From contig NC_064540.1 in NCBI RefSeq assembly GCF_023856365.1, positions 16,399,191 through 16,463,190 on the forward strand: a stretch of DNA of 64,000 nucleotides, in the 5' to 3' direction. The position numbers and the translations under genes are program-made. The notes under the pieces were generated by a model. That model did not search any database. It worked only from the letters and a program-made list of their open reading frames with translations, and was not told the DNA's origin. Of this stretch, positions 31,216 through 53,440 are shown in pieces. The first letter of the stretch is position 1. Each line of letters begins with the position of its first letter. Origin of the DNA: Brienomyrus brachyistius (Eukaryota; Chordata; Actinopteri; Osteoglossiformes; Mormyridae).

Positions 31216-31328
31216 CATGGATCTCGCTTTACTCAAGAACCAAGTGACATTATTTTTCCATTGAACTGTGATGACAGTGTGGTCTTCATTAACTGTAAAG
31301 CCAAGGGCAACCCAATGCCAGGTTATAG
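31216..31328 (+). pseudogene. Contactin exon: Ig1 first half (open)
   Basis: Reads [17 protein letters not shown], then the first Ig cysteine in INCKAKGNPMPGYR, a typical contactin Ig1 start. It ends AG|GTGAGT with phase 2, and the next exon supplies the missing base for arginine. The 5' limit is uncertain because no clean acceptor AG lies before the HGS codons. No lesion seen. Confidence 0.85.
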
Positions 31329-31511
31329 GTGAGTAATTTTGCCATTCTAGTCAAATTGCTTAAAGATTTACCACAGTTGAAAACGTGTGACGTAACACAG
31401 ACATTTTATTGCTGATAAATGGCTAGTGCTTATCAGACATACTTCAGAAAGTAATGAATCTGTTTGAAATTTTTGTATTGTATGAAAAAATGGACTGAAA
31501 TTGCTTCACAG

Positions 31512-31684
31512 GTGGAAATTTAATGGAGAAGACATTGCGATAGGCGGTGATTCAGAGTGCAGGCTGACAGAAGGAAACCTGCTGATTAACAGCCCAGAAG
31601 CGACGCAACATGGAGGAATATATCAGTGTATCGCCAGTAATCCCCTAGGCACCACTGGCAGGAAGGCCAAAGTGCAGTTTGCAT
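31512..31684 (+). pseudogene. Contactin exon: Ig1 second half (open)
   Basis: Acceptor CTTCACAG, donor T|GTAAGA. Encodes WKFNGEDIAIGG ... EGNLLINSPEA ... YQCIASNPLG ... KVQFA, with the second Ig cysteine and the contactin-type GGIYQC motif. The frame is open and joins the previous and next exons in phase. The best preserved part of the locus. Confidence 0.9.
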
Positions 31685-32159
31685 GTAAGAGAGCTTCTTC
31701 TAATTGTGTCACAAGGTTGACTTCCTGCCAGTGATAGACCATTTTAAGAAGTGCGGCAGGCCTGATTTCTGTTGCTTTTTGAGTTTAAACGCTTTCACTA
31801 CAGGTGCATTCCGATTTAAAAAATGCTAATGTTACTTTTAAATAGAATCTTGAAAATGAGTAACCAGCCTCTTTCCATCAGTTTCATTCATCCCTTCCTG
31901 TAAAAGACAGAAAAGCAAACGCTTACATGCAGTTAATTGGCAGTAAGCATCAATGTGATATTCGTCGTTAAGTCAACTTGCATCATGCACAATTGGTTGC
32001 TGATGTTAAATCAAATTGTTCTTTAATAAACATTTAATATGAGTGAGAATAATTCATTTTTTTCAAAAGGTAATTTGTAGATTCTCCAACTAGACATAAA
32101 AATTTCCAAAAATGTATATTTGCCCATTAGTCTGAAATAATCCATGAAAGGCCTGTAAT

Positions 32160-32478
32160 TTGGTAGCATGCAGGTGCTGTACTTGACACTATTGCCTCAC
32201 GCCTCTGCCAAGGTTCCATGTGTGTGGAGTTTGCACGTTCTCTCCGTGTCATTCTGGGGTTTCCTTTGGGTCCTCCAGGTTTCCAGTTACCAACTCCACA
32301 GAGTGAGTGTGCCCTGTGGTGGGTTGGCACCCCATCCTGGGTTGTTCCCTGCCTTGTGCCCGTAGCCTCCAGGATAGGCTCCAAACCCCCTGCGACTCTG
32401 AATAAGACAAGTGGTTACAGAAAATGGATGGATGGATGGATGGATAGATGGATGGATGGATAGATGGATGGATGGATG
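32160..32478 (+). mobile_element. SINE, diverged, in contactin intron
   Basis: Contains GCCTCACGCCTCTGCC, TGTGTGGAGTTTGCACG, GTGCCCTGTGGTGGGTTGG and GGATAGGCTCCAAACCC, then GGAT/AGAT repeats from about 32424. The tail has a single 47-bp segment (GTGCCC to GTGCCC), unamplified. Confidence 0.85.
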
Positions 32479-33666
32479 ATTGCCACATGCTGTTTCAAAG
32501 AAGCAACACTGGGCACTGTTTAATGGTTAGACCACTGCATAATCATTAGCGTAAAAACCATCAGAAAAGCCAGAGTGACTGAAACAGGCTAGCTGACTTG
32601 GAAGTATTTATATGTACAAAGATATATGTATTTACTGAGGATAACTTGGCCATAATTAAAATAAGTCTAACTGGCAATCAGGTTACAAGGGAACTGTGAA
32701 CAGAAACTAAAATCTGGCTGTTTTTAATTATAGCAATGCCACTTTAGGCATAATAGCTATTTTATTGTGTTTGTTTATTTTTTTTATCTGTATTACTTAC
32801 ATATGCAGGTATGCAATACCATGTCACACCACAAAAAATGCATGCCCTGGGTATCGCATGTGATGCACAAAGTTCTATGCATAATAAAAAAAAACAAAAC
32901 ATGCAAATAAACTAAAGAGTCTGAAGTAAAGTTCATTGCACAGTTTATGCTCCAATTCAAATGGAGGCCTGCAAAGACATTTACTGATTAAGTGGCTCAC
33001 ATTTAAGGTTTTGTCTGATAAAATTCAGCTGTTTTTAAAAATGAAGTAATTAGGTCACTCTGGATGAAAATGTAATAGCTTGTTCCACCACCTTATACTA
33101 ATATTAAAAGAGGTGGATTAATAGATTATTGAAATCAGTTTGAAGGCTAAGGGCACATTAGCCATTAGCTATGGCACAGTGACTGTTTTTGGCAGAAATC
33201 CAGTTCTCACCTTTTCTTTTTTCCCCACTTTACAGGCTTTTAACACACTTTCCAATGCTGTCTAATGGACACATGTTTTAAAAAATGAAAGACTGAATGT
33301 GAATTATCTTAGGAAGCAAGGCACAATTGTGCTGTGGCCCCTGCATGTTTTATGAGAAATGTAAGTTAGGATTTTATTCTCAAGATAAGCTTTTCCTTTC
33401 AAAGAGCACTATATTACACATTTTGAGGGTTTTTAGTCACGAAGTGTAGTTTCTGTCCTAGGATTTTTTCATCTATTATTTCATAAAAGCCTAACACGAT
33501 GGGGTGAGATGGAAGGCCTGATGTATTTTGTACTTTATGTATTTTCTGCCAGAAACACTTACTGTATGAGTATGCTGTGAGTGACTGTAAGATGATGTAA
33601 TAGTCACTCAAACAATGGCAGGGCCGCATGCCTGGATTATTTGAAGACGTGTTTTTGTTCTCACAG

Positions 33667-33761
33667 ATATGCAGAACTTTAGCAGCAAGCCGGGAGCGTG
33701 GTAAATGTGCAAGAGGGTCAGGCTGTGGTGCTGCTCCGTGCTCCTCTGCATCACTCTGGAG
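33667..33761 (+). pseudogene. Contactin exon: Ig2 first part, frameshifted
   Basis: Acceptor GTTCTCACAG; the first two bases complete the tyrosine started by the previous exon (contactins have FAY here). It reads YMQNFSSKPGA, then shifts frame near 33697-33703, and continues VNVQEGQAVVLL-R-APLHHSG, matching the contactin segment that ends in HSG. The conserved Ig2 cysteine codon reads CGT (Arg). Donor G|GTACGC. Confidence 0.8.
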
Positions 33762-35732
33762 GTACGCCCTTTCTGGCATAGTCTCAATCCTCGGAGTTAC
33801 ACTCGTCTCTCGTGGCAACTTCCGCTCAACTACTAATAAATACTGTATGTAGGTCATGTGAACAATGCAACAGCGAATGACCTTGTTCAGTGAAAATGTC
33901 ACTGGGAGTCAAAGGGCTCAAAGACTTTAGCAGTCATAGCGTGTAAGTGCTAATGTATCCCGTTAGTACGCATTCCCTAACCACCCTCGAACCAAACAAG
34001 TCCTCGTCTGTTTCCTGCCGATTTTTTCCCCTGATAATGTTAGTGAGGATGTTCTACACAAGTGAAGTTCCTTCTCCTTGAGTCATTTTTAGTGTAGCAA
34101 GATGGAGTGTGTGGGGAGAGTGCAGGTTTTTTAAAAAAACGTTTTAAGAGTAGCAGGTAATACAGGCATCAGAGCCATTCGGGCAGTGTTGTACTGCGTC
34201 TACAATGGTGCATTTCTCCCATGCAGAGCTGCACGGGCGCTCAGGTGTGCGCTGCTGATTAGCGCACCCTCCCTGCCGTCTGCCTCCGTCAGTGGCAGGA
34301 AGCACAACTTCACGCTCTGCTTTTTCTTAGCTATTTACCTCCATTACGTCTCATTCTCAAAGACTCTTATATGTTACTTTTGTCGTTATGAGATCCTTCG
34401 TAAAACTTGATGACTTTCCGCCGTTTTCAACATTTCTGTCACCGCACTCTGAGAGCTTTAATTGTTTTAATTCACTCTGTCCCACAAGGAGGCAAAAGCG
34501 ACTAACTGCCCAGGCAACAGAAAAGAGGCTCTAGGATATAATATTTTTCTCACTATGATGCCTTTTTTTCCCTCTTCCTCACTCTAATAAAAGTTTCTTC
34601 ATTTGGACCTGATGTCCCCAGACCCTGACATGCTCTGTTTTGTTAAATGGAGCTCTGGTTTCATAACGGTCTACAAATCAGGTGGAACTCACTTCCAGGC
34701 TTGGGCATTCCAGAGGGAATGCAAATCGACAGCACCCAGAAGCACCAGCAGTTAATGAGTTCCAGTGACTGTGTAAACAGACAGCCACCACAGCTTGCCT
34801 CACACTTTTGTTTGGCCCTTGGGTCTTGTTTGCTTCACTACACTTTTGTCTGGTTTGTCTGGTTGTTTGACTTGGGTGAATATTCGGGCTGGTTTTTCTC
34901 ATCTGGTTTCTTGGTTATCCTGTCCCTTGACTGGGTGAGTCTGTTCCATTGTCTTGTGTTTGACCCTACTCACCTGCATTCTGTGCACTTCTTCTCATGC
35001 TGGGAAACCCTTTCCTGCCAAATCCCATCAACACTAAGCACCTGGTCATCCTCCATGTGGGGCTAAGGAACCTGGGTTCCCCGACCGGTGGTGACCTGGT
35101 TCAGGAGACCTGGTACTTTGCTGACTGTTTCTTTGGACTCCATTCCTTGTTTTGTAGTCAGTAAAGCTCTTGGCTTTGTTGGCTGGTCTTGCCTGTTGAT
35201 GTAGAAGCTTTGGTGAAAGTGCTTATAGAAAAAGTGTCCCATGTAGTATCTGAGTTAGTATCCTTGTACAGAATTACATTTAAATGATTGTATTGACAGT
35301 AATTTCGTAAACAGAGCACATTATAAATTAGCCATTATCTTATTGTCATCAAGGCAAAGCTTCCGCAATGAAAATGGTTTCCACAATTAATATGGCTGCA
35401 TTTTGGCAAAAAAATAGCAGGGAACAGCTTGACCAAGAAAAATGCTTACAGTATATAAAAAAAAATAAATAAAACCAGGGCAGTTTTCCCCCCAGCAATG
35501 ACCAATTGTTCTCCAGACACAGTCTTTCCTGGAGCATATGTGTTTGCTTCAGAAATTCCACCATTTAGCTAATGTGAAGCTCTCATGATGTGGACCTTGT
35601 GTTGGGACATTTTCTCGTCAAATGCACTGCTCACCAGGACAGCGGATTTTCAGAGATGAGCCAGAGGAAGAGTCTCCAGAGAGCACCGATAGGGTGCTAG
35701 CCCAATCTTAAAGTCTTCTAAAGTCTTCTCAG
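33762..35732. other. Contactin intron region, no other feature
   Basis: No second gene was seen. Segments around 34790-35190 are rich in TTTGTC/TGGTTTG phrases and may be an old dispersed repeat. Confidence 0.45.
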
Positions 35733-35832
35733 CTGGAGGGGGAAATTCTATATTGATTCTCATCCTTTGCATCATTGTCACACCCAGAGAGAGCACCAGC
35801 TGCTGACCAGAAGGAAATGGTTCAGTATTTCG
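35733..35832 (+). pseudogene. Candidate contactin exon: Ig2 middle, with stop
   Basis: Good acceptor (AAGTCTTCTCAG) and donor (CG|GTAAGTG). One frame reads EGEILY, a TGA at 35754-35756 where contactins have a tryptophan codon region, then FSSF. The rest does not align clearly. This is the weakest exon assignment. Confidence 0.35.
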
Positions 35833-35924
35833 GTAAGTGAGAGGGTTTTACAGCTGAGTGTGTTATTTCATCCTTGAATTTTGGTTTGTTTTTAGAGATT
35901 TAAATTAAATCAAAATTTCTTCAG

Positions 35925-36081
35925 CAACACCTTCGAAGCTTTGTGTCCCAGAAGACAGGAATTTTGTACATCGCAAAGGTGGATGCTTCAGGGGTAGGAA
36001 TCTATACCTGTGTAGTGAGACACCTGATGACGAACAGTACAGGGTTCAGCTCCCCCATGCCAGTGCTCCTGAGCAGTGATG
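35925..36081 (+). pseudogene. Contactin exon: Ig2 last part (open)
   Basis: Acceptor TTTCTTCAG, donor G|GTGAGC, phase 1 as expected. Encodes RSFVSQKTGILYIAKVDASG, then VGIYTCVV with the second Ig2 cysteine, and ends PVLLSSD. The RxFVSQxTGxLYIxKV phrase is a contactin signature. No stop. Confidence 0.9.
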
Positions 36082-36608
36082 GTGAGCTGCTAATTGTACT
36101 TATTGTTCTAGTATCAGTGGCACAATGCTGTGGTACACTGAATGTGAGCAATGGATGAACTACTGTCTCAGCTGATTAAAACATTTGTTTTTTTTTTTTT
36201 TCTCATATGCAGTTGTAATGCATTCCTTATTCCAGGTAGTGCTGACTTGTGCTCTGTACTCTTGTCAGTGGGGTTAATGCCTACAGTATGTCTGAATTTT
36301 CCTCCCACAGTCACAAAACGCACAAACATGCTGGGTTTAGCACTTGTATTGACCTTAATTTCCTGCATGAATGGACAAGTTCAATTGCTGATCATAGCAC
36401 AGTTAGGTGTGTAGATATCATCTATTCCTTATATCTTCCTAACTCTACAATGGATGGGAAATCAGAAAGTAGATGGGAAACCTCTTCTTGTCCTTCATTT
36501 CATCTTCCACACGGGGCCACAGGTTGCAGTGAAGTTAGTCTGAGAAGCTGAACTTTATAACGCTAACGGTTAACATCTTTAAAATCTTTTCTTTCTGCAT
36601 CCCTGCAG

Positions 36609-36669
36609 CTCTGAAGCCTACTCCGCAAAAGGGATCGTCTGTGAAATTGGAATGTTTTGCATGGGAAAA
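36609..36669 (+). pseudogene. Contactin exon: Ig3 first part, damaged
   Basis: After CCCTGCAG it reads LKPTPQKGSSVKLECFA, matching the contactin AAKGSTVKLECFALGN segment. Directly after CFA one base appears lost (TGGGAAAAG where TTGGGAAA.. is expected), so the frame breaks before the likely donor GTAGGT. The upstream part of this segment (usually with KIEVQFP) is missing. Confidence 0.75.
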
Positions 36670-36905
36670 GTAGGTCTCAAGTTATATCAGCATCCTGGCA
36701 GGGTGTCCAGAGAAATGCCTGTCATCCTCCAACGGGCACTTAACCCTCAATAGCCACACTCTATATGGATCAAGCTGGAGAAGATATTTTGAATGTTTTT
36801 CCAGTGTCCACTCGCCATATCTTTCCCTTGAACGACAGGCGTTTTGTTTCATTTGGAAAAGCAGGTGACTTACCTGTCCTTTCTGCTTGATCTACTGTAC
36901 TGTAG

Positions 36906-37089
36906 CCCAGTACCTGCTTTGACATGGAGAAGAACAGACAGAAATCCTTTTCCTGAAAGATCAAAATCAACAGCCACAACAACACCCTTGAAATCCCATA
37001 CTTCCAACCAGAAGATGCTGGCTCCTTTGAATGCATGACAGAGAATACCAGGGCATGAAGTGCTGGAAAATGACAGCTAACTGTCTATG
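36906..37089 (+). pseudogene. Contactin exon: Ig3 second part, frameshift and stop
   Basis: After CTGTAG it reads PVPALTWRRTDRNPFPERSK, then shifts frame near 36958-36966 to TLEIPYFQPEDAGSFECMTE, the contactin Ig3 end with its cysteine. A TGA follows at 37056-37058. QLTVY in a third frame marks the original exon end, so there are at least two frame changes. No clear donor remains. Confidence 0.85.
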
Positions 37090-37742
37090 ATATCAACATT
37101 CACTGACATTTTTGCCAGATTAGAAGTTTAAAATGATGTGCTGTTTTTAAAAGTGTGAAAAAGAAATATTTGCTTTCAGGCTTAGAAAATATTTTATTAT
37201 GTATAAGAATTCTTGTCTCTGTTGTGAAGTGCATTTGGGTTTCCCTGACTCTTATCAGTTAGATCAAAGAGTGACATCTAATCGAATGTCAGATAATTAA
37301 GCATACCTCATAACTCATCCAGAGTGGCTTTATCTCGATTCGTCCAAAGTTCAGCAAAGTAAGTCTGATTAGAATGGCTGTTTCACAAATCATAGAATGG
37401 GATTTGATAATGATTTTGTTCATTTTATTAAAGAGTGCCATGAAACCTATAAGATGTCAATTTAATTTGTTGTGTTTTACCGTTCTGCTTTACGATTTCC
37501 AAGCTGTTGCTTGTCTGTATGAATTCTGCTAGCCGCTACTGTGCATGGAGAAAAGAAATAAACAGGCTATCAATTACACCCTTAGGTGGTACGAAAAGTA
37601 CATGCAAATGTATACAGTATACTGATTTCGTTCAAGGAGTAGCTGTGCACGTATTCCTTACAATGTGCTTTGTAACAGTTTTCAGACTTCCCCTAATATG
37701 CTGAATTCATGTGAAACCCGAGCTTAGTGTATTCCCTTACAG

Positions 37743-37878
37743 ATGTTGAACAGCTGCAATGGATTCAGACGTTGAAAGACACCCATGTGGCCTTTGAAGC
37801 AGACCTTTCCTGGGAACGTGGAGCCAGTGGGAAGCCTAAGCCACTGTACAGATGGCTGAAGAATGGCCAGTGGCAAAG
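37743..37878 (+). pseudogene. Contactin exon: Ig4 first half, cysteine lost
   Basis: Acceptor TTCCCTTACAG. Reads QWIQTLKDTHVAFEADLSWE, then R-GASGKPKPLYRWLKNG. Contactins have W-E-C before RASGKPKPSYRWLKNG; here the cysteine codon is CGT (Arg). The frame is open. The donor is unclear (AAAG|TATAGT or CCA|GTGGCA). Confidence 0.88.
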
Positions 37879-38229
37879 TATAGTGTGTATATACAGTATA
37901 GTGTATATGCGTCATATTTGTATTCTCCACACCAACAATACATATGGAATTTGGACCTTTCTAGCTAGCATGGTCACTCAAAAAGTAGTTGGAAATTTTT
38001 TTCCAGACTTTGAAAACAGACTTTATGGGAAGAAGACCTGATACTGATAAAATTTTGAGAAAATTCATAACAAAATTGCAGCAGCACCACGTCGTGATAG
38101 CAAAGAGAAGGGGGGTATCAGGCACTCAGTCTGCTTAGTGTGAAGCTCAAAAAGTATCTAACCCATTATATTGACACGTTGTGTTGGTGAAGACAATGGT
38201 GTGGATTTAGGTATGGATGGTAAAAACAT

Positions 38230-38300
38230 GCCCCTACCAGTACTGTGGGAGTACTATGTGTTTAGGGGGGTGGGGCTTTGGTGCTGATTTGGTCCCCCCT
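38230..38300. repeat. Dispersed segment, second copy
   Basis: Shares GGGAGTACTATGTGTTTAGG, GGGGTGGGGC and GCTGATTTGGTCC with the segment at 29690-29775. Confidence 0.45.
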
Positions 38301-38429
38301 TAAAAGCAATCTTCTACTCTTCTGGAACTGATCGAATTTTTAAACAAATTGCGCCAAAACTGAAGCAACACCATCAGTGACAGCAAAGGGAATGGAGACT
38401 GCAGAAGACATTTGGCATTTTGAGCTTCC

Positions 38430-38787
38430 ATCCATCCATCCATTTTCCAAACCGCTTATCCTACTGGGTCGCGGGGGGTCCGGAGCCTATCCCGGAAGCA
38501 AGAGGCACGAGGCAGGGAACAACCCAGGATGGGGGGCCAGCCCATCGCAGGGCACACTCACACACCATTCACTCACACATGCACTCCTACGGGCAATTTA
38601 GCAAGTCCAATTAGCCTCAGCATGTCTTTGGACTGTGGGGGGAAACCGGAGTACCCGGAGGAAACCCCACGACGACATGGGGAGAACATGCAAACTCCGT
38701 ACACATGTGAGCCAGGCGGAGACTCGAACCTGGGTCCCAGAGGTGTGAAGCAATAGTGCTAACCACTGCACCACCGTGCCGCCCCTC
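38430..38787 (-). mobile_element. Full-length SINE, reverse orientation
   Basis: From the plus strand: CATCC repeats, TTTTCCAAACCGCTTATCC, GGGGTCCGGAGCCTATCCC, a single 47-bp segment, the GGACTGTGGGGGGAAACC core, CTCGAACCTGGGTCCC (reverse B box) and CCACTGCACCACCGTGCCGC (reverse head). It is little diverged, so probably young. It sits inside the ~180-bp tandem repeat. Confidence 0.92.
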
Positions 38788-39867
38788 ATTATGAAATTGA
38801 TAATTCAAAAAGTATATGATGGGTCTTACTGCATTATCACTTCACATAAACATTATATGGATGAAGATCTACACTTGGTTTTACATCGCGAAAAATTGCA
38901 CCAAAACTGAAGGAGCAGCGCTGGGAAAGTAGGGAAAGGGAGGCTGCAGAAGATTCTTGATATTGTGAAGATAGTAACTCTAAAAGTATTTGATGGACCT
39001 TTTTCACACTTCCCTTGAACATTGTGCAGGTGATGAATTGGGGGCTGTTTCACTTTGAGACAAATCATACCAAAGTGAAAGCAGTGTCAGTGCACTGTCA
39101 GGGTACCGCTCTCGTGCAGTTTTGTAATCCAAGGTAATGTACCTCCAATGGTACAAAAATGTCTTGCCAATTGTACCTACAGCTAGGATACAATTTCCGG
39201 ATCCTTAAGTGCCCCACTGGTAAGTAATTGTACAATCAAAGATATAAATTGGTCCTTTTTTCTGTGTGAAGGTACATGTGATTACATCGAGACAAGTCAC
39301 ACAAAGCTTTTAATAAAGATTTTTTTGAATAGTGTGCAGGAGGGCTCTAAATTGTAGATGGTTCTATGGGAGGTGTTGGGGTTTGAAGGGGTAACTGGAC
39401 TGTCCAGGGAATGCGCTGCTGTCATTCCCACAGCATTTAGCTTTCTTCAGTATGATAAATGGATGTGCAAATGCAGGATCTTCCAGCAAACTTCCAGAGT
39501 GTGAACTGTTTTCATTTTTCCGTATGCAACAGTCATCTCTTAATATTCCCGCTGCAAATTTCTCTTTTATTTTAGTGGTTGTATTGCCAGTGAAACATGC
39601 CAGTGAACATTGACATGTTTGTCAGTGTTCTCAGTGATTGTTTGACTAGTTTTGTAACTGACTGATTACCTGAGACTGTCACAAATTGAGGCTTTTATTG
39701 ATGATGGATGATATAAATACAACAGTACAAGTAATGAAAAAAACTGGAAAAGTGTTTTGATATGAGTATTAAATGATCAGCTCTGGAATTTTATCATACT
39801 TATATATGCATTCATATGAATGACAGTTTATATATGGACTGAATCATTTGTGCATATTTTTCACTAG

Positions 39868-39997
39868 GACAGAATCCAAGTAGATGGTGGTAAATTATCC
39901 ATTTATAACCTCAACCTGATGGATTCTGGGATGTACCAGTGCTTGGCAGAGAAGGATGATGGAGAAATCTATGCCAGCGCTGAACTCAAGGTTGTTG
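39868..39997 (+). pseudogene. Contactin exon: Ig4 second half (open)
   Basis: Acceptor TTTTCACTAG. Encodes DRIQVDGGKLSIYNLNLMDS, then GMYQCLAEK with the second Ig4 cysteine, and ends YASAELKVV, a nearly exact contactin phrase. Donor G|GTGGGT (or GTGAGG four bases on). The last base pairs in phase with the next exon to give V-D-F-S. Confidence 0.92.
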
Positions 39998-40298
39998 GTG
40001 GGTGAGGATTGTGTAATACAAGATCTGACATTAGAACAAACATCACATCACTCAAGCAGCTCGCGAGACACCTATGTGTTGACATGATTAAATAGTTTGA
40101 CATATTATGCACTTTAGATACGGCTAATCAAAAGCAATCAAGTCGGAACAAGTCAGTCATTTAAGTGTAATGTACTAGCATAATTATAAATCCATTATAG
40201 AGTTGACATTTAAATGTAATATTTGTGGCCCTACCTTAGGCATTGGGGGGGGGGGGGGGGGTCCTGAGTATTGTTTTGCCTATGAGCATCTCCTCCAG

Positions 40299-40428
40299 AT
40301 TTCTCTATGAGCGCAGTAATGCTGTCTGTGTCAGTCCAGAGAGGGCGGTGGGTAGTCGCCCCCACACCTTTTCAAAAGGCGTCTTTCTCTTGGAAGGAGG
40401 ATGGAGGATCCCTGCAGGGTGGCCGCAG
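40299..40428 (+). pseudogene. Contactin exon: Ig5 first half (open, cysteine lost)
   Basis: Acceptor ATCTCCTCCAG, donor AG|GTGCAG. Reads FSMSAVMLSVSVQRGRWVV, then APTPFQKASFSWKEDGGSLQ and GGR. The KASFSWK-x-x-x-x-LQ part fits contactin Ig5. The conserved cysteine after V-V/I-I is absent. No stop in frame, but the phase to the next recognised exon no longer fits. Confidence 0.65.
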
Positions 40429-41021
40429 GTGCAGAACCTTTCTGGTGGTACCACTCCTGAGTGCCCGTAACAGGTCCCACGCGGCCATTGGGAGACCTAC
40501 TGTATGTGGTAAAAACCACGAGGTGCACGACCGCTAGCTGCAGCACTGACACAGCCACTGAGGACATTCTCTCGCTTGGGAAGGTGATATTGCTGCTCAA
40601 GTGCTCACTTCACATATATTTTATACTGCAGGTTCATATTAAATGCGGCTCTCATTAGCACAGCTGTTCGTTTAGGCCTTAGTGCTTCTGGGCAAGGAGC
40701 CGTTTCACTCACTGCTATTAGATTTCCAGAATTCCATTTGGCAGCACTCCAGAAGTTCATACCGAGAGTGGAATCCCTATATGTCTCGTGGGTTTATTCT
40801 AAACATGTTATCTAGGGGTGAGTAAGGGCTTAACTGCCAGTCTTAATGGTTAAATGTTTTTTTATTGGTTGCTGCCTCATGTATTGTACACCTGGTGAAG
40901 TTATTCACTGCAGATGGTATCAGTTGATGGCCACTATAGTTTTCCTGTAGGAGCTGCAGTTTATCCACTTCTTGTACAGTGTTAGTGTTGAAGGTCAGTA
41001 CTTATTACTCATTAGCAAGTA

Positions 41022-41340
41022 CAGACGCTCCTCTACTTATGAATGAGATATGTTCCGAACGGCCATTTGTAATTTTAAATGTTCGTAAATCATTATTTAA
41101 CATCTTTTTAAGGGTATATGCTAGTACAAAGAACTAGGATGCTGGGAGTACGCAGGCTACGCTGCTGCGTGACAGGAGTAGCAGCCAGAAGTCGTACTGG
41201 GCGGAATTGGCACGCAGAAAACAAATTGATGTTGCAGACAGGAAAGGGCAGCCCAATGAGCACAATTTGGACATACGGTCCTCTTCGTTTGTATGTCTGA
41301 AAGTTCGTAAGTTGAAAGTTCGTAAGTAGAGGAGCGTCTG
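41022..41340. mobile_element. 319-bp miniature DNA transposon (TA-flanked, CAG ends)
   Basis: Left end CAGACGCTCCTCTACTTA and right end TAAGTAGAGGAGCGTCTG are exact inverse copies. A TA dinucleotide flanks both sides (41020-41021 and 41341-41342), as for Tc1/mariner-superfamily insertions; CAG termini point to the pogo/Tigger group. GTTCGTAA recurs near both ends. No transposase is encoded. Confidence 0.9.
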
Positions 41341-42775: not shown

Positions 42776-43093
42776 GGGCGGCCCGGTGGTGCACAGGGGA
42801 CACATGAGTTCCATGTGTGTGGAGTTTGCATCTTCTCCCCGTGTTGTTGTGGGGGTTTCCTTTGGGTACTCCGGTTTCCCCCCACAGTCCAAAAACATGC
42901 TGAGGCTCATTGGAGTTGCCAAATTGCCCATCAGTGCACATTGCGAGTGAGTGGTGTGTGAGTGTGCCCTGCCATGGGTTGGCGCCCCATCTCGGGTTGT
43001 TCCCTGCCTTGTGCCCTGCCATGGGTTGGCGCCCCATCCTGGGTTGTTCCTTGCCTTGTGCCCTGCCATGGGTTGGTCGCCCCATCCTGGGTG
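42776..43093 (+). mobile_element. SINE with ~2.7 copies of the 47-bp tail unit
   Basis: Head GGGCGGCCCGGTGGTGCA (internally deleted across the B box), body CCCCCCACAGTCC, then 47-bp units at 42964, 43011 and 43058 (GTGCCCTGCCATGGGTTGG). The normal 3' end is missing. Confidence 0.88.
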
Positions 43094-43364: not shown

Positions 43365-43687
43365 TTTTAACACATGTAAAAACATTGCAGTGGGTGAGCT
43401 GGCCGTAGAGGAGGAACATACAGTATTAGGAGGGGGAAAAAAAGAAGGAAAAAGAAGAAAAAGGAGAAAAAAAAGGCAGAAACAAGAAAAAAAGAAGTGG
43501 ATAGATTCAGAAAGGAATAAACAAAATTAAAGCGTGCAAACAGTAACACAACTATACAAGCATATAAAATCTTAGTGTGTGCTTGAATGGGTGCGTGCAA
43601 GTATATGTAGATGTGTGCTTAATTGTGTAGGCGAGATGCAGGCTAGTGCTGTGTGCATGTGTTGCGTGTGTATGTTGTGTGCGTCAA

Positions 43688-44205
43688 ACATCCTGGGTTG
43701 CTCCCTGCCTTGTGCCCTGCGATGGGTTGGTGCCCCATCCTGGGTTGTTCCCTGCTTTGTGCCCTGTGACGAGTTGGTTACCCATCCTGGGTTGTTCCCT
43801 GCCTTGTCCCCTGTGACGGAATGGTTCCCCATCTTGGGTTGTTCCCTGCCTTGTGCCCTGCGATGGGTTGGTGCCCCATCCTGGGTTGTTCCCTGCCTTG
43901 TGCCCTGCGATGGGTTGATTCCCCATCCTGGGTTGTTCCCTGCCTTGTGCCCTGTGACGGGTTGGTTCCCCATCCTGGGTTGTTCCCTGCCTTGTGCCCT
44001 GTGATGGGTTGGTGCCCCATCCTGGGTTGTTCTCTGCCTTGTGCCCTGCGATGGGTTGGCGCCCCATCCTGGGTTGTTCCCTGCTTTGTGCCCTGTGACG
44101 GGTTGGTTCCACATCCTGGGCTGTTCCCTGCCTTGCTCCTGTAGCCTGCAGGATAGGCTCTGGATCCCCGCGACCCTGACTAGGATAAGCAGTTTCAGAA
44201 AATGG
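43688..44205 (+). repeat. SINE-derived 47-bp array, 9 copies
   Basis: Nine units of 47 bp from 43712 to 44134 (GTGCCCTGCGATGGGTTGG ... TTGTTCCCTGCCTT), then a normal SINE 3' end (GTAGCCTGCAGGATAGGC, CGACCCTGACTAGGATAAGC). No SINE head precedes the array. Unit variants (TGTGACGGGTTGGTTCC versus TGCGATGGGTTGGTGCC) alternate, hinting at a higher-order period. The 141- to 180-codon frames here are artefacts. Confidence 0.92.
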
Positions 44206-45094
44206 AAGCATGGAAGTTTTATACACTATATTTTCAGCAGAAACTTCCTAGAAATAACATTATGACAAAAAATTAAATGAATACTACTATATTACTAGTT
44301 TTTTAAACACATACAATATTAGCATATTACACAACCCTGACCAGGATAAATACTTTCCAGATAGATGATGGTGGTGATAGTGACACACCTCTGGAAAGTG
44401 GTCCTTTGGTAGATTCCCATGCAGGAATAAAGTTATGTGTATCATCGTAATTGAGTGAAATCTTCTATATTTTCTAATTAAGTGTATTTTTTTCCTAGTA
44501 TCATCTAAATCTTTGTGTTTTTATTTTTAGCAGACAATTCTGCGACTCAGCCTGCCCTATATCCATATCTTGTTCCATTACCTTTCAGAAATAAGCGTAG
44601 GTGGATTGATAGCATCGCACACATGCTGTATGGTGATAAGACTCTAGCTCAAGATTCATTACAGGTTGAATCACCGTACCACAATGCACCTCTCTACCCC
44701 TACCTCTCTCGTCTTAGACCCTAATGTACCGCTGTGCATCATATTACAATACACGCATTTAATCTTTTCAGGAGCCGGTATCATGCCATTCCACTGCAAA
44801 TTCACCCAACATAAAAACATACACAATTGCCGTATGCAAGAATGGTGGGAAATATTCAGATATTTTGCAAATGATTAAAAAGTGATAGATGGGTTCATTA
44901 TTGTCATTATATCCAGATTTCTAATAATGCATTTGAACCGTGTTAATCTGCATACATTTCCTAAGGAAATAGTCACGTATTGCACATATCATCTCCTCCA
45001 TAAAGTGCTGCAGGGGGGTGCATCTGTCTCCAAGGTGAGCCCTTATCATCCTCACAGTAGTGCAGCCACTTCTGTTCCTCCACCAATCATGCAG

Positions 45095-45218
45095 ATGGTT
45101 ATGGAGGACGGCAGCCGCCGAATGACCAGTGTCAGTGAGACCGACTGAGAGCTCTACACCTGCATGGCGCTGAGCCCTTTCAGCGCCTCGAGCAGCTCCA
45201 GCATGCTGGTGGTAAAAG
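45095..45218 (+). pseudogene. Contactin exon: Ig5 second half, stop codon
   Basis: Acceptor CAATCATGCAG, donor G|GTATTT, phase 1. Reads MVMEDGSRRMTSVSETD, TGA at 45146-45148, then ELYTCMALSPFSAS and MLVVKG. Contactins have x-x-EDGSLRI ... SDAG-x-YTC ... LVVKE here. The nonsense codon sits just before the second Ig5 cysteine. Confidence 0.85.
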
Positions 45219-46132
45219 GTATTTGTCTGGACCAAAAATCCACTGCTTTTTAAGCAGAAGGTTCAAACCATGGCAGGGTGGGGGGGGGGGATCCTAATAA
45301 CCCAACCATGAAATTGATAATGAAATATATAGTTGTTTTATGGTCCCGCTAGTGTGACAGAGGCATAACTCATCTCAGGTTTTGTCAGCTGTGAGTTATT
45401 GGTCATACAGGAAAGTGGAGAAAATCTCCCGCATCTGTGGAGGAGTTTTCTGTCTCCTCCATTCACACGTCGTCCTGCTTGCGTAACTTAAAAAAAAAAT
45501 GCAAGCGTTGCACTTTTATAATTTTGTTGTTTTTTAAAAGTGGGCTGGGAGATGTTCTTCATCTTACAAGCTGATTGTATAACTTTAATGTTCCATTTTC
45601 GAGGCAATTTGAGTAAGGCGTTACACAATTTATTTGTTTCTTCAGAATGCTAAAGGTGTCCAAAGGCAAAGACGTCTTTAATCCTTTTGTCATTAAAACT
45701 TGGAGCGACCTCAAAGAAAAGTGCGGACACTTATTCCACTCCTCACTATCACACTTCATTTTAATTAGGGCCCATTTAATGAGCTATCCTCATCCCTTTC
45801 TTTATTATTCACACAAATGTCACAGTTTGTGCAAATAAATGAACACGAGACCTCTAAAGGCACTTCTACACACCGCCTCCTCATGTGCGATCCACAAAGA
45901 TGTTTGTGTTCACAGAGGTACTGAAGGTACACTCACGTACACAATTCCTAGCTGGTGTTGGGACTGTTTGGACACACAAATGCTGTCGTGAAACATTTAT
46001 TTTTTTTAACCAAGTGGTTTATAATGGTAATATGGTATAATATTCTAATTACTACAAACCTCTTGGTTATACAGCAATATTTATGTATGTATGTGTGGTT
46101 TGCGTGCTGTAATATAGATTTTTCTTCTACAG

Positions 46133-46291
46133 AACCAACTAAGATCATTGTTCTGCCTCGAAACTCAGATGTCAGTGTGGAAGAGAGCGTGGTGTCAGGC
46201 TGCTCGAGATCCCACTGTACTGTACATCCCATGTTTAAATGGTTCTTTAATGGGAAAGCAGTCTATGTAAAAAAGCAGAAGCAGAATGTCA
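46133..46291 (+). pseudogene. Contactin exon: Ig6 first half
   Basis: Acceptor TTTTCTTCTACAG; the first two bases join the previous exon's G to give E-P-T. Reads KIIVLPRNSDVSVEESVV, a cysteine in SGCSRSHC, then FKWFFNGKAV. It fits the contactin EPTR-I ... SMDVSVGESVILPC ... FTWYFNG pattern. The 3' limit is approximate and I see no clean donor. Confidence 0.82.
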
Positions 46292-46805
46292 GAAGTCTAT
46301 ATACCTTGTTTACATATATAAGCATAGCTAGAATATGCAGAGACTTCTGTCCATTAATGTACCTGCAAATGTTTTTTTTTGGGAGGAGAGGGAGGACGGA
46401 TTGACATTATTTCATTGGATGAGAACAAGCTTGATCTAAGAAGAGAATTATGTCTGTGTCTGGCTGGACCACAAAACGATTTAGTGTAATTACTTTGCGT
46501 ACACTGGGATGGCATACAGTCTGAGCATATGAAGGATTTTTTAAATTCCGAGCATTACCTAACCGAGAAGTTCTCCATTCCACCCTCTAACTCCACTCAT
46601 GTCTCCCACTGATAAATCCTATAGAGTGAGAAGAATTTCAGATCGGCCTCAATTTCAGAGTTTGTGCTGATGAGATTCACCTTGGTAGACATTTCCATCA
46701 CCCCACAGTTTGACTGGCTGATGTTTCTTACGATACAAACCAACAATACGGGACTTCCTTCCATTTTACATTGGATGCACGTCTTTCTCATCCTCTGTTG
46801 GTAAG

Positions 46806-46922
46806 ATTCTACTGGAGATCTGTTGCTCAGGAACATTCAACTAAAACATGTGGGAAAGTATGTGTGCATGGTCCACATAGCAGTGGACGGCACATCTGCA
46901 GTGGCAGAGCTGATTGTAGAAG
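46806..46922 (+). pseudogene. Contactin exon: Ig6 second half (open)
   Basis: Starts after GGTAAG and reads [20 protein letters not shown], then [20 protein letters not shown]. This is a close match to the contactin GDLMIRNIQLKH-x-GKYVCMVQT ... LIVRG block, including the second cysteine. Donor G|GTAATC, phase 1. Confidence 0.92.
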
Positions 46923-47239
46923 GTAATCTCCTGTAATGCATTCAGCATGCTTGACTGGAACATGGATGGAATAATGCATCGAGAAACATGACAATATTTG
47001 GTAGAACATTCTGTATTACATAATGTGCTTCCAGGGCTTGATGTTAAATATCCACAGCTTGGTGTGAAGTTAGGAGTATCCAAAATCAATGCTTAAATCT
47101 CACACTTTGTGTTCATGAGGATCTATTGTATTCCCATGATGGAGAATCTCTAATCTGTCTCCTGAATAATAATCTAAACTTTCATGGTCAGAGAAGCCTC
47201 CTTTACATTATCTATCTACTTTACATAATCACTTTTTTA

Positions 47240-47430
47240 GCAGATCCTTTTACCCAAAGTAACATGAAATTTAGGAAGCAGGGTCAGGTAATTCCTATAG
47301 CCATTGGGGTTAAGGGTCTTGTTCAAGGGCCCAATGGTGAAATCACTCTGTAGATCTTGGGATTTGATCTGGTGACCTTCCGATGAAAAGCACGGCATCC
47401 TAACACACTGAGCTATACACCATCCCAACT
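47240..47430 (-). mobile_element. tRNA-derived SINE, second family, reverse
   Basis: Plus-strand phrases TTAAGGGTCTTGTTCAAGGG, GATCTTGGGATTTGATCTGG (reverse B box), CACTGAGCTATACACCATCC (reverse A box/head). On the minus strand it begins GGGATGGTGTATAGCTCAG, like the copies at 16934 and 21232. Confidence 0.65.
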
Positions 47431-47510
47431 GGCTATTCTTTTTTCTTTTTATGTGTACAATAGACCTACAAGGTCCCTTACGAATTGTGTCTGCAGTCTT
47501 TGTGTCTCAG

Positions 47511-47652
47511 GGCCTCCTTGTACTCTAGAAGGGCTTGTGGTTGAGGACATGGACATGATTGCCCAGCTGTCTTGGGGCACCGACCCCGATAACCACAGCC
47601 CTGTCACTGCAAACATCGTACAGGCCCATACACCCTATTCCATTGGATGGGA
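47511..47652 (+). pseudogene. Contactin exon: FN1 first half (open)
   Basis: Acceptor TTGTGTCTCAG; phase 1 joins to give E-G-P-P. Reads LEGLVVEDMDMIAQLSWGTD, then PDNHSPVTANIVQAHTPYSI and GW. The AQLSW, DNHSP and QA-x-TP-x-S-x-GW motifs are diagnostic for contactin FN1. Donor GA|GTGAAA. Confidence 0.93.
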
Positions 47653-48039
47653 GTGAAAACGGGTATGGACAGTTAATGCAGAGTCATGATACCAAATGCT
47701 GGGATGCAGCTGTATGCAGCTGGGATAGTGGCTTCACACGTTTAATCCCATCAGAAAAATATCGAATACTGATTTGTTGCTATTAGATTAAATAGTGTGA
47801 TGACTTCCATGTATAAAAATTCCAGTGACATTCCATAATTCATTATCGCTCTGATTTTTGTTTGCCTCTCTTTAATCCTCTTTGATAAAAGGCACCGTAT
47901 AGAAGATACAATGAATCATTTAGAAGATGGACAGTACAGGCAGGTAATCCAGTATGGTGGCGCAACAGATGTGGATGAGAACTGCCATGTATTTCGACTC
48001 TGATTCTTGAATTCCTCGTTCGTGATTCTGTGACCTAGA

Positions 48040-48153
48040 CAGATGTTTCGTATCCATTGTGGCTGAATTGAACCTCTAGGGAATCACATATTCAGGGTGG
48101 TTACCACAGGAGACCCCAGCAGGCCGTCGAAGCTGCTGAGGACCAAAGCGGCA
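48040..48153 (+). pseudogene. Contactin exon: FN1 second half, stop and frameshift
   Basis: Reads FVSIVAELNL, TAG at 48077-48079, GITY, then in another frame FRVVTTGDPSRPSKLLRTKA. This is the contactin VVELNPWVEYEFRVVA ... GTGDPS-x-PS ... RT-x-EA block with several residues deleted. The 5' end is approximate and the donor after GCGGCAG is not recognisable. Confidence 0.8.
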
Positions 48154-48645
48154 GGAATTCCTAGTCTACTTTCATGCTTCGAAAAAGATTGTTCAAGCAC
48201 AATGCAGATTAGGGATTTTTATGCGGTATATTTGTGGTGTGCAGTCACAGTCAGTAATTAAGGAATTTACACAGCATTTGACTCAAATTGCATATTTATG
48301 TATATCTGTAATCTGTATGCTTAGGTAAATTTTAAAGGGGGATTAATGTATTTTCTTGTCTGCTAAAATTTAAAAACATTGCACTTTTAAAATTACAGAT
48401 ATTTTGGACATCAGTACATTGAGAATCCAGTTAAGCTACGCACACATGATCGGAATCCTCCCTAATAATCACAATCTCCATAATCTGTGGCTCAATGTAT
48501 CATTATAGTTTAAGATTACATACAGCTAACCCTAAGCTTTCCTTAATTAAAGTTAACTTATCGGGGAGTTGTGGTAACTTTCCATCCAGCTCTCTAAGGA
48601 CCCCAGAAGAGTAGCCCTTCATATGCATCGCTGCCTTGTGTCTAG

Positions 48646-48713
48646 TGCCTGAAGCTGCACATCTCTGTGTCAGTGGTGGTGGAGAGTCAGGAGCAGCTGG
48701 TCATCAAATGGAA
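48646..48713 (+). pseudogene. Contactin exon: FN2 first part, frameshift, donor lost
   Basis: Acceptor CCTTGTGTCTAG. Reads VPEAAHLCVSGGGES, then shifts to EQLVIKWK, matching contactin VPE-x-x-P-x-x-V-x-GGGGSRSELVITW. The bases after the exon are CTAAGA, one change from a GTAAGA donor. Confidence 0.78.
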
Positions 48714-48940
48714 GCTAAGATTTACTAACAGCATTTTTATTACTGTATATATTCATTTATTAACTTGTACTATGACAGAATTGTCCCACTATAGTAATAA
48801 TATGTATGATACATGACGATGATACAATATGCGCATGTAGCTAGGTTTAGTTTCTGTCATCCGATTTAATTTAGGGCAACAGCATATGGGCGCCTTGTGG
48901 TGTAACTTCTCTTGCCTTCATATGAGTATAACCTATACAG

Positions 48941-49170
48941 AAGTTCTCTTCTATCCGGTCCCAGAGGAGCTGCTCAGTGGGAATGGGTTCAGGGACGTTG
49001 GGGCACAAAAACCTGGATACAGACTCTGGTGGCGCCTGCTGATGTATAGATACACCTTTGGGAATGAGAGCATCCCACCTCTCTCCCCATTTTAGGTGAA
49101 AGCTGATGTCTATAGCAGTATGGGAGAAGGAACTTGAGTCACGCGGCCACCGTTTATTCAGCTGGGGAAG
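48941..49170 (+). pseudogene. Contactin exon(s): FN2 second part, stops
   Basis: Reads PVPEELLSGNGF, then YRYTFGNESIPPLSPF, TAG at 49093-49095, VKADVYSSMGEGT, TGA at 49135-49137, and in another frame ATVYSAGE before donor G|GTACTG. This follows contactin PVPEELQNGEGF ... YVFRNES-x-PP-x-SPFEVKVGVYN-x-KGEG ... VYSAEE. TAG replaces the conserved glutamate codon. Confidence 0.9.
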
Positions 49171-49607
49171 GTACTGTACAGAAGCGTTGCTTCTACTGTG
49201 TTCAGATATTCATTTGCTTATTTGCAGGAGTGTACCTGCAAATTCTGGCCCCCCTAAGAAAATGTCACCTTCCCCCCCCATCTAAGTAATTTTACGTATC
49301 CAGTGGCCCCTTTCAGGTGGCAGACCCCCTGAATCTGGCTCGGTATCCATGCCCCTCTTACTCCCCTGCTTATTTGTAACTAATTATGAAATGAATCGGC
49401 TTTACACTGGAGAGGAAAATGCCAATAGTTATATTAATTGCTGTTAAAAGACTGAAACCAAATGTATTAATCACTTATTCTGCCTCAGAGCTGAGTGATT
49501 TCCTAAGAACAAGCTTGAGCACATAAACATGAAGAAAGAATTGTGCATGAGATAAGTGAATATAAAAGCTAGCAGATGTGTAGAGTTTTCCCATCCATCC
49601 TGCGTAG

Positions 49608-49707
49608 AACCTTCAGAGCGGTATGGGTACGGCGTGCCTCGTAAGTCAAGAGCTACCAGAGAACCAGACCACTGGAAAGCCAGCGATGGACAAATTCGGG
49701 GCTATGA
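49608..49707 (+). pseudogene. Contactin exon: FN3 first half, diverged
   Basis: Acceptor ATCCTGCGTAG; phase 1 gives E-P-S, the usual start of contactin FN3. The middle is poorly alignable; WKASDGQIRGYE at the end fits the W-x-x-(x)-x-G-x-x-x-GYE pattern. No GT follows GYE, so the donor seems lost. Confidence 0.65.
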
Positions 49708-50339
49708 ATCAGAGCAGAGAGACAGGCCCTTTCTGAGAGTATGGCAACTCGTTCAGTGCCTGCATTTGCATGACAGTGTATAATCTCAGCTCAACTGTCG
49801 CATTTAGCGTGATGAAGAATAATCTTTCAAAATTAGTCACCTTATTTAATAATTTTCTGATTCGCTTGAACGGTCTAGCATCACAGAAGCAGACGCAGAA
49901 AACATGCTGCATTGAGTGATAAAAAATAAATTGAAGAAGAGAGACAATGAGGCAACCAAAAGAGGGAAAAAAGGCAAGAAAAGTGAATGCAGAAAAAGAG
50001 GTATAAAGATGCAAGGTCTACAGCCACATTGATTCTCTGAACAGTTTAGCAGTTTTTTAATTTAATTATTTTTTTCGTTTTGTTGTTTGCCTTCCCTGTA
50101 AGGTTGCCTCGTACCTCCTGAATTTTCCCAAGGCCCCTTTATTGGCCCAGAATCCCCGTGTTCTGCCTGCGATGGCGAAGAGGGATCAGCCTCTTCATAA
50201 TACTCGAGATGACCCAGCTGCTGTGGGGATTTTTATGAATTTCCCCCCTATAGCAGTGTTAATTTGACAAACGCTGTGTGGCCGCAGGGACAGAGGGAAG
50301 GCAGCGTATGTCCTTTGCTGGCTGCTTCTGTTTGCCTAG

Positions 50340-50508
50340 GTGGCCGACTGGGAGGAAGGGGGACTGGAGAGGGAGTAGCGGGCAGACACAGCTGCCAGAT
50401 TCGCAGGTCTGAAGGGCAGCACTGCGTACCTCATCACAGCCCAGGCTCGCCATTGTGCTGGCTCTCACCCTCCAAGTGCCCCTGTCAGTGTTACCACCAG
50501 GAGGCGAC
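50340..50508 (+). pseudogene. Contactin exon: FN3 second half, stop codon
   Basis: Acceptor CTGTTTGCCTAG, phase 0. Reads VADWEEGGLERE, TAG at 50376-50378, then GLKGSTAYLITAQARHCAGS and PPSAPVSVTTRR, matching contactin V-x-YW ... GLKGSTAY ... AGTGPPSA-x-VNVTTKK. Donor C|GTGAGT is intact. Confidence 0.9.
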
Positions 50509-53263
50509 GTGAGTCTGCGTCCAGGAGGACAGATACGTCTCTTTAATATGAACTAAACTTGTCGGCATTTTTTATTTGTTTGTGTTGAACTACAGTAAAA
50601 TGGTCTTCCATTTATCCATCCATCCATGCATCCGACTTCCATCCTTTTGTCCTGAGCAGTCAGCTGAGCAGCATTGACTGCATATATTTCCGCTAAATTT
50701 TTTACTGAGAGTAATAAATTTTTTTTATGAAAATAATTGCAACAGTACCAGTTTGAGGCAAAATTGGATGTACAGGTTTCAGGACAGATTCTAATATGTA
50801 CCATACACAAAAGTAGTTTGGAAGTATTCAAAGAAAATGCAATGTTTTCAAACTGAAGATTAGAGCGTTTGGAAAGTTTTTTTTTTTTTAAGAAAGTCTG
50901 CAGTACTGTGAGAACCTTAAAAGTAAGAAGGATAGTTAGATTACGACACTTGAGCTTTGTTAAGCAGAGAGATCTAGATGGTTTCACAAATGGTCAACCT
51001 TACCGTCTTAACTTGCGCAATTACCTTGCGTATGAATTTGAACATTGTCATTGTTAACATACACAAAATGATAAAATATATCCAAAATCCTCATTGGGGG
51101 ATATCTGTGAGGTAATTTCAGTTAATAAGATAATCTTGAAATTAAACGTACACAAAAATGAATAGGCATCAATTAAACCTAAATCAGAGCTAAAGTTTCT
51201 CACAGATTTTTTTTTAATCCCAAATGTTCCTAGTTTTGTGACATTCACAGATTGGATTCTCAGCGGCCTCTGATTAGAGAATCTGCTTAAATGTAGACCG
51301 TAGCCCACATATGAATGAATATGATTGTGATATTCCCCTTCAAAAGATCCTGACAATTCTAATACATATTTCACAACACATCATATATTAAAGGCCTGGT
51401 ATGTCTTACTGCATGCTCCTCAGCTGAGACACTGGTAATCCTCAGTTTTAACATCACTAAATCATAACTGAGCAGGATTTACTAAAATATATCTAGCTGT
51501 TTATTATAAATATTAAATTTTTTGTTGCCGTTACTGCTAAGTCAGGCACCAGGGAAAATTGAGTGAAACCTGACAAACTAAAGTTGTTCTGAGCTGGAAT
51601 CCCATGAAAGCAGGTGGGGAATGAATCAGAGTTAACAGGATTCAAGGTAACAGTCTCATTGTAGGAAGTCCCCCTCCACCTCAACCCCCGGAAACATCTC
51701 TTCATGTGTTTACGCCTTGATTGATTTTTTTTTCCAATAGTAGACAGGACCGCATAATTAAGCAAAGCAAGATAAGCGAGTATTATTCTGCCAGCTTAAA
51801 TAAACACTGAGCCACCATTGGTATATTGCCGTCATTCCACCCTGCTGTAACAGCAGCCATTAGCCTCGATCAAATGGTCGGATGTAATGTTCCCCACAGC
51901 CAGAGGCCCAACAGGAATTTCCATTTGCTTTACAAATCAGCCTGCTGTGCCGCATTGGCCAAGAAAAACACTAACATTGTCCACAAATATTTTATATTGA
52001 CCAGTAATGTTTTATGCCCTGTGTAAAAATGAAATTTAGCAACCATTTAAATAAAAATGTTTATTTGATTTACATTTAGGGCCGGCATTAATCTTGAGGA
52101 ATGTCACTAAAGTGAAGTGACATCAGCAGTCCTTAGCAAATCTGTGCTTAAGACCCGTAAGTCAAAGCCCTGGGTGAGCAGGCCACAGTGCACTGTGGGT
52201 AATGAGGCAGCAGCCTCCATTCGCTGACAGCCGAAGCAGTAGTGAGAGATTAAAGAGTTTCGAGAGAAAAGAAGCAGCTCCGCTCATGTGTGTGTGAAGG
52301 TGAGCTGGTGGTTCTCTTAGAAGCTGTTTCTGTATGAAAGTGCCTCACATGCAGTATCAGGATCACTGCACACTGGGTTCACCACAGTCTCCACTGATGA
52401 TCATTTTAAGTTCATGCCATCATTAAATTGTCTGAAGATGTCATTTTTGCATCCAGTAAGTTAGCTTTTTAAGTCTCTCCTACCTGTTTTTTTTCTGAGT
52501 AGATTATTGTTTTTTAAGTCTTTATTTTATTGTTCACATGTTTTTATAACTTATATAAAATAAATATTTAAGAGTCTGTTCATTTTAAAGTAAAAGTAGT
52601 TGTAGCCCAGACTACTTCAGCTCTGTTCAGTTCGGTCAGTTTGAGTGCTCTCATTTTATATTAGTGGACATATTTTCTAACTTTTTAAAATATAAGTTAA
52701 ACACTGATATTGCAGAGAAGTAATAACAAATGTACTGGAAAGGTTTTGAAAATGTGTTTTCATCCAGGTTGCTGGCGATGGATTTTCATGTAGAATTCCA
52801 TGTAAAGTTGTATTTTATTTGCAGTGGTTTACCTGTATTGTTTCTTTGAGGAAACCTACTTGTAAGATTCGTAGTTGGAGGTACTAGGGATATAATCAGT
52901 GAACAATGTCTGCCGCTCTCCCATTTAGGACGCCAAATAATCAATGTCTTTTACATTATTGAAGAATTAAGAATAACCTTTGTCTTGCCAAATGATAAAT
53001 GAAAAAAAAATGGAGGAAACTGGTAGACCGAGAGGGGAGAAAAGAAAAAGCCTGAAATGCGGATTGAAGCCCAAACCCTCATGGTGTGTGCAAATAGTTC
53101 TAGCCTCATAGCTGCAGTCGCAGTTAAATCGATGGTCAAACAGTCAGTTTTATCTAAAGCGGTTACAATTGCAGTTGATGTTCAGCCAAGTTCCTTAATC
53201 ATTACAACGCCGGCGACAATCTCAGTGCAGGCACTGGCGAAGTGTTTTCGCTTTTTCATCCAG
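50509..53263. other. Long contactin intron; FN4 first half not found
   Basis: I searched for the proline-rich FN4 start and the ENESEV-x-GYK segment and found nothing convincing. The missing exon may be deleted or decayed beyond reading. No other gene was seen. Confidence 0.5.
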
Positions 53264-53440
53264 GTGGTTTACCGTCAGGGCAGGCAAAGCTGGAGCAGTG
53301 TACTAGAGGCTGCAGTTAACTTCTAATGATGACTTCCACCTCCTCCTCCTCTCCTTCCTCTTCCTCCTCCTCCAACTGATAAGTAAGGGGGTGAGGGCAT
53401 GGGCACTGGTCCCATCAGGATATCCCTGGTGTCCAGTAAG
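53264..53440 (+). pseudogene. Contactin exon: FN4 second half, decayed
   Basis: Acceptor TTTTTCATCCAG. Reads VVYRQGRQSWSSVLEAAVNF, then TAA TGA. This fits contactin (GYK)VLYR ... V-x-ET. A CCTCCT-rich tract (53338-53375) follows, and then in another frame GGEGMGTGPIRIS resembles the GGDGTxxxxIRIP end. It is probably one exon broken by a pyrimidine-tract expansion. No GPI-signal exon was recognised downstream. Confidence 0.65.

Follow-up and report, generated by a model that had tools for sequence, protein, structure and literature searches.

The stretch of DNA analysed here (the window, 64,000 nucleotides) corresponds to positions 16,399,191-16,463,190 of contig C8 (NC_064540.1) in the 985 Mb, 1384-contig genome assembly of the mormyrid fish Brienomyrus brachyistius, and it contains the remains of a gene for a contactin, a glycosylphosphatidylinositol (GPI)-anchored neuronal adhesion protein; these remains are hereafter called the C8 relic. 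A translated comparison of the window with contactins, which an earlier note made from the sequence alone had proposed as a check, gave one colinear series of matches on the plus strand. The gene model was obtained by a frameshift- and intron-aware alignment of the 27.5-54.6 kb part of the window to four fish homologues, and the alignment score was 2253 on the plus strand, as compared with 453 on the minus strand and 465-520 in four block shuffles. After six short pieces among the 27 aligned were discarded as spurious, 21 exon remnants of a contactin with six immunoglobulin (Ig) and four fibronectin type III (FN3) domains were retained, spanning positions 28,445-53,447 on the plus strand, with introns between them and with their order preserved. 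The exon boundaries were inferred from this alignment, which favours GT/AG ends, and not from the gene structures of relatives. The remnants are as follows.

28445..28499, plus strand: exon remnant 1, signal-peptide exon; start codon ATG preserved, as is the donor GTAAGG; MLLPWELLILLPLMESLAG versus MLLPWELLILLSLKDCLAE of eel P0001
31199..31328, plus strand: exon remnant 2, Ig1 first half; acceptor AG not found, donor GTGAGT intact
31512..31684, plus strand: exon remnant 3, second half of Ig1; acceptor and donor both intact
33667..33761, plus strand: exon remnant 4, start of Ig2; one base deleted near 33690, Arg in place of the invariant Cys144
35898..36081, plus strand: second part of Ig2; 5' portion absent or not in frame, donor GTGAGC preserved
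36609..36669, plus strand: Ig3 start, KGSSVKLECFA; GEYEPKIEV piece upstream not found
36906..37092, plus strand: Ig3; frameshift near 36955, TGA at 37056 and TGA at 37071, AT at the expected donor GT
37743..37877, plus strand: Ig4 first half; invariant Cys341 changed to Arg
39868..39997, plus strand: second half of Ig4; acceptor and donor intact, without a visible disabling lesion
40287..40447, plus strand: Ig5 start; invariant Cys433 lost by an in-frame deletion
45092..45218, plus strand: Ig5 end; TGA at 45146
46133..46287, plus strand: Ig6 start; 3' end uncertain
46805..46922, plus strand: Ig6 end; donor GTAATC intact
47511..47663, plus strand: FN3-1 start; frameshift or stop near 47651-47656
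48039..48154, plus strand: end of FN3-1; stop plus frameshift near 48070, GA at the expected donor GT
48646..48713, plus strand: FN3-2 start; 2-base deletion near 48684
48954..49170, plus strand: FN3-2; frameshifts near 49000, 49047 and 49132, TAG at 49093
49608..49708, plus strand: FN3-3 start, weak; donor GT not found
50340..50508, plus strand: FN3-3 end; TAG at 50376, donor GTGAGT intact
51542..51646, plus strand: FN3-4 start; TGA at 51564 (a Trp codon), frameshifts near 51579 and 51613
53264..53447, plus strand: FN3-4 end, including GGEGMGTGPIRI; a CT-rich repeat disrupts the middle

Remnants of all ten domains thus follow the signal peptide in order, FN3-3 being weak. In this alignment the second Ig2 exon had no readable 5' part, and the third FN3 domain was missing or unreadable over most of its start. 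The piece VMGEYEPKIEV upstream of the Ig3 start was not found, and no readable match to the GPI-anchor end was seen downstream of 53,447. The earlier note had placed 18 to 20 exon remnants at 31216..53440. The ordered series is real, but the count is 21 and that start is too late by 2.8 kb, as the signal-peptide exon, with its ATG and donor intact, lies outside the range.

Sixteen disabling lesions were checked on the bases, twice the minimum of eight claimed earlier: eight frameshifts (near 33690, 36955, 48684, 49000, 49047, 49132, 51579 and 51613), six in-frame stops (37056, 37071, 45146, 49093, 50376 and 51564) and two sites with a stop or a frameshift (near 47651 and 48070). Additionally, splice signals are lacking at four inferred exon ends, with AG absent before exon 2 and GT absent after 37092, 48154 and 49708. 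An apparent stop at 39,865 was rejected as a lesion, since its TAG belongs to an intact acceptor. The C8 relic is an unprocessed pseudogene, in which the exon-intron structure is kept and disabling lesions are distributed across several exons. A processed pseudogene (retrocopy) is ruled out, because the remnants are separated by introns over 25 kb and many of them are bounded by GT and AG; the earlier description of a full-length, decaying, intron-bearing contactin was therefore correct. The relic is predicted to yield no contactin, because exon 2 has no acceptor, a join of exon 1 (phase 1) to exon 3 (phase 2) would be out of frame, and stops and frameshifts lie beyond.

The loss of constraint can also be observed at the residue level. 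Three stretches of poor alignment were masked ahead of the residue counts, and the 855 readable residues are 62% identical to the Arapaima and to the eel homologues. Between those two homologues, identity at these sites is 79%. Among nine family-invariant cysteines, two have become arginine and one is deleted. A set of 135 near-full database homologues, including several isoforms per species, defined 166 invariant columns; 151 of these are readable in the C8 relic and 37 (24.5%) are changed. When each homologue was left out in turn, the corresponding median was 0%; the highest value was 10.7%, for P0105, whose gene model may be faulty, and the second highest was 2.6%.

Four paralogous genes, two on C8 and two on contig C6, were identified by genome search and alignment.

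C8 16.157-16.174 Mb, minus strand: cntn3b-type gene
C8 16.650-16.688 Mb, plus strand: cntn4-type gene
C6 29.313-29.375 Mb, minus strand: cntn4-type gene
C6 29.906-29.923 Mb, plus strand: cntn3b-type gene

The C8 relic is located between the open cntn3b-type and cntn4-type genes of C8, a same-genome synteny comparison that had likewise been proposed, and the cntn4-type gene, which belongs to the fish contactins that we call group B, lies 0.2 Mb downstream. By the same method as for the relic, the four paralogues (L009-L026) showed 0 stops and 0 frameshifts across approximately residues 150-960, and the only events listed fell in the N- or C-terminal ends, which are poorly covered by the aligned stretches. 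Three paralogue matches in the genome search carried a single flagged stop each; in L002 this is the first codon of the match, ahead of the exon, and the other two flags are absent from the alignment. Such a contrast within one assembly bears on the possibility that the gene works and that its lesions are errors of a noisy assembly. Several of the frameshifts are indeed one- or two-base indels, but six point stops, the lost cysteines and the changed invariant residues, together with four paralogues read without a stop or frameshift, make this explanation extremely improbable.

The C8 and C6 copies are 76% identical for the cntn4-type genes and 73% for the cntn3b-type genes. In the trees, the C6 cntn4-type copy joins ten teleost sequences to the exclusion of the C8 copy (support 92/97), and the C8 copy groups with Scleropages (95/90). 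Such nesting of the C6 copy fits a twin older than the diversification of teleosts, and the two blocks show what the teleost genome duplication is expected to leave.

A search with the eel protein also matched C6:29,570,771-29,570,989, between the C6 cntn4-type and cntn3b-type genes. Alignment of the region revealed a second, ordered relic of the same kind (L027-L030) at C6:29,566,506-29,599,451 on the minus strand, with a score of 1937 against 495 on the opposite strand; its signal exon was not found within a 40 kb stretch around the first match. Ten stops and 15 frameshifts were listed in its accepted pieces by the alignment, a listing that, unlike that of the C8 relic, was not checked base by base, and 44 of its 152 readable invariant sites are changed. 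At the 138 invariant sites read in both relics, 30 and 39, respectively, are changed, and eight are common to both, where 8.5 would be expected by chance; the replacement residue is identical at one of these eight. As the number of shared changes is close to that expected by chance, the two relics decayed independently.

In a joint tree, the C8 relic joins Arapaima and Scleropages at a support of 83/87, and the C6 relic falls at the teleost base. This is expected if C8 holds the copy retained by other teleosts, which is the probable case. Against a twin relationship, a sister arrangement of the two relics was not rejected (p 0.08), and for this reason the status of the relics as twins rests on their neighbours. 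The position of the C8 relic among fishes shifts with the reading used, and a reading made without osteoglossomorphs left it unresolved at the teleost base. If the sister arrangement were correct, the C8 relic could be a younger local or segmental duplicate, independent of the genome duplication. We regard this as very unlikely, since the same two paralogue types flank both relics and the C6 cntn4-type neighbour separated from the C8 one before the divergence of the ten other teleost sequences. The C6 relic lies in a paralogous block whose neighbouring genes match those of C8 and are of equal age, and it is accordingly interpreted as the genome-duplication twin of the C8 relic.

In order to find an intact copy, whole-genome protein searches were performed with P0002, P0001 and P0003, and 45 of 688-727 candidates were scored in each. 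Within these, no intact contactin as similar as the fish homologues of the relic was listed. The matches listed comprise exons of the paralogues, with identities reaching 74%, CNTN5 on C17 (L005; 80% to CNTN5 records) and Ig/FN3 genes that are less closely related. An unplaced contactin-like exon at C8:29.49 Mb (44-49%) is also among them. An intact copy that was missed or unassembled would make the two relics surplus and the loss incomplete, and two facts count in favour of this and against our interpretation: only 45 of about 700 candidates were scored per search, and an assembly in 1384 contigs may miss sequence. However, an intact orthologue is expected at approximately 75-85% identity (79% between Arapaima and eel), above the paralogue exons listed, and the search with P0001 picked up even three exon pieces from the two relics. 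In addition, no closer protein was present among the 120 listed of 756, 2440 and 149 database matches. We consider a surviving copy unlikely. Both duplicates appear dead, and it is very likely that the C8 relic is a contactin gene which has died and whose twin has died as well. The earlier note had left open whether a duplicate or a single gene was lost in this lineage; the whole genome points to both together.

The closest database proteins of the C8 relic are a set of ray-finned fish contactins, which we named group A; most of them carry the label contactin-4 among the 120 matches listed of 756 and of 2440. A phylogeny, also suggested earlier, places the relic within this group with a support of 100/100 in a smaller tree, and plain alignment gives 847 bits to the eel protein and 499 to the next family. 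The earlier note had named cntn3/4/5/6 without choosing among them; we favour a cntn6-type gene with moderate confidence. In a larger tree with more tetrapod rows, including three human sequences, CNTN6 is the partner of group A (86/94), CNTN4 that of group B (89/88) and CNTN3 that of the fish "3b" proteins (96/93), and in a topology test the union of group A with CNTN4 was rejected (p 0.023). Moreover, zebrafish CNTN4 (PDB 7mro/7mrs, attributed to zebrafish by excluding the other data sets that PMC8808184 lists, and not by an organism label) scores 511 bits with a group B protein as compared with 377 with a cyprinid group A protein. On these scores, the zebrafish Cntn4 of that study would be the group B gene and not the group A one. 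CNTN4 adjoins CNTN6 in mammals. The Albula gene models JZ751_017890 (group A) and JZ751_017891 (group B) are numbered consecutively, which we take to recall the mammalian pair.

Several observations weigh against a cntn6-type assignment. An earlier tree with fewer rows joined group B, and not group A, to CNTN6 (88/89), and groups A and B as sisters are not rejected (p 0.19). In plain similarity the C8 relic scores 499 bits with CNTN4 and 492 with CNTN3, above the 414 of the CNTN6 record (46% identity to the CNTN4 record and 39% to the CNTN6 record), and group A proteins score slightly higher against CNTN4 than against CNTN6. These scores, together with the name contactin-4 on most listed group A records, could indicate that the C8 relic belongs to CNTN4 or to a separate fish lineage. 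This is possible but doubtful, given the rejected union of group A with CNTN4, the higher score of zebrafish CNTN4 with group B, and the open group B gene 0.2 Mb downstream of the relic.

The label "contactin-4" in fishes spans two genes, P0001-P0141 in group A and P0209, P0213, P0211 and others in group B. PMC8808184 lists cntn1-5 as the only contactins with clear fish orthologues, and group A may be the CNTN6 orthologue. This naming fault, in which fish contactin-4 records cover two genes and one of them is maybe the CNTN6 orthologue, matters for fish models of CNTN4 or CNTN6. The same study describes binding of APP by the FN2 region in CNTN3-5. Residue 750 of P0002, apparently the APP-contact position M749 of that study, is Met in six of the 141 group A records (gar and sturgeon included), Ile in 66 (eel, Arapaima and Scleropages included) and Lys in 63. 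The best 120 of 2440 matches included no group A protein from a mormyrid, notopterid, pantodontid or hiodontid, the presence of such species in the database being unchecked.

Given its own codons, the share of changed invariant sites in the C8 relic corresponds to approximately 0.10-0.18 neutral changes per site, for which about 8-16 stops are expected and 6-8 are seen. The resulting decay time is roughly 10-90 million years if 2e-9 to 1e-8 changes per site and year are assumed, an estimate that carries both the assumed rates and the bias toward similarity in the reading of the relic. The teleost genome duplication is dated to about 350 million years ago in PMC4166920. As the decay is far younger, the C8 copy probably remained under selection long after the duplication.

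Taken together, we are confident that the C8 relic is an unprocessed contactin pseudogene, probably of cntn6 type, and that it and its C6 twin go back to the teleost genome duplication and decayed in place independently. An ancestral block with the order cntn3 - cntn6 - cntn4 would have been doubled by that duplication; both cntn3-type and both cntn4-type duplicates have open gene bodies in this genome, and both cntn6-type duplicates lost their function by mutation. Selection on the cntn6-type copies may have been lifted long after the duplication, and the role of cntn6 may be covered by the retained cntn3 and cntn4 pairs or by other receptors. Faster gene-family turnover in Osteoglossomorpha is described in a mormyrid genome study (PMC10029256), in whose main text the terms "contactin" and "cntn" are absent. 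It is conceivable, but rather unlikely, that an osteoglossomorph clade (possibly mormyroids or kin) is devoid of cntn6, both duplicates having been silenced late during a rewiring of cerebellar and sensory circuits while the cntn3 and cntn4 pairs were kept. Gene loss is a known kind of event, and the pair of relics is unusual: loss after duplication is mostly visible as absence, whereas here both twins are readable between open neighbour twins, so the order and timing of two gene deaths are open to study.

The window also contains ten minisatellite arrays with units of 27-154 bases.

1-895, 22947-23308, 26783-27115, 29816-29969, 30070-30780, 42963-43092, 43689-44135, 54462-54901, 58736-59802 and 63381-63757: minisatellite arrays

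A 47-base segment, apparently part of an interspersed repeat, is expanded in tandem at 26783 (7 units), 42963 (2-3) and 43689 (about 9), and it is found singly at 4616, 32308, 38510 and 55864, with two further weak matches.

Among known systems, the C8 relic shares the exon order, the Ig6-FN4 plan and the signal peptide with the group A contactins (P0001 of eel, P0002 of Arapaima, P0003 of gar and P0004 of Scleropages, labelled contactin-4, -3 or -2), but these are open full-length proteins and the relic is disabled many times. Tetrapod CNTN6 (NB-3) is the sister of group A in the best-sampled tree, and the cntn4-type gene adjoining the relic resembles the mammalian CNTN4-CNTN6 order; unlike the relic, tetrapod CNTN6 is functional. 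The zebrafish Cntn4 treated in PMC8808184 is also a member of the contactin family, but of group B, whose genes are open here on both C8 and C6. The C8 relic resembles the unitary pseudogenes in that no intact copy was listed in the three genome searches and the relic lies between the expected neighbours, and it differs from them in that two relics are present, both twins of the genome duplication having been lost.

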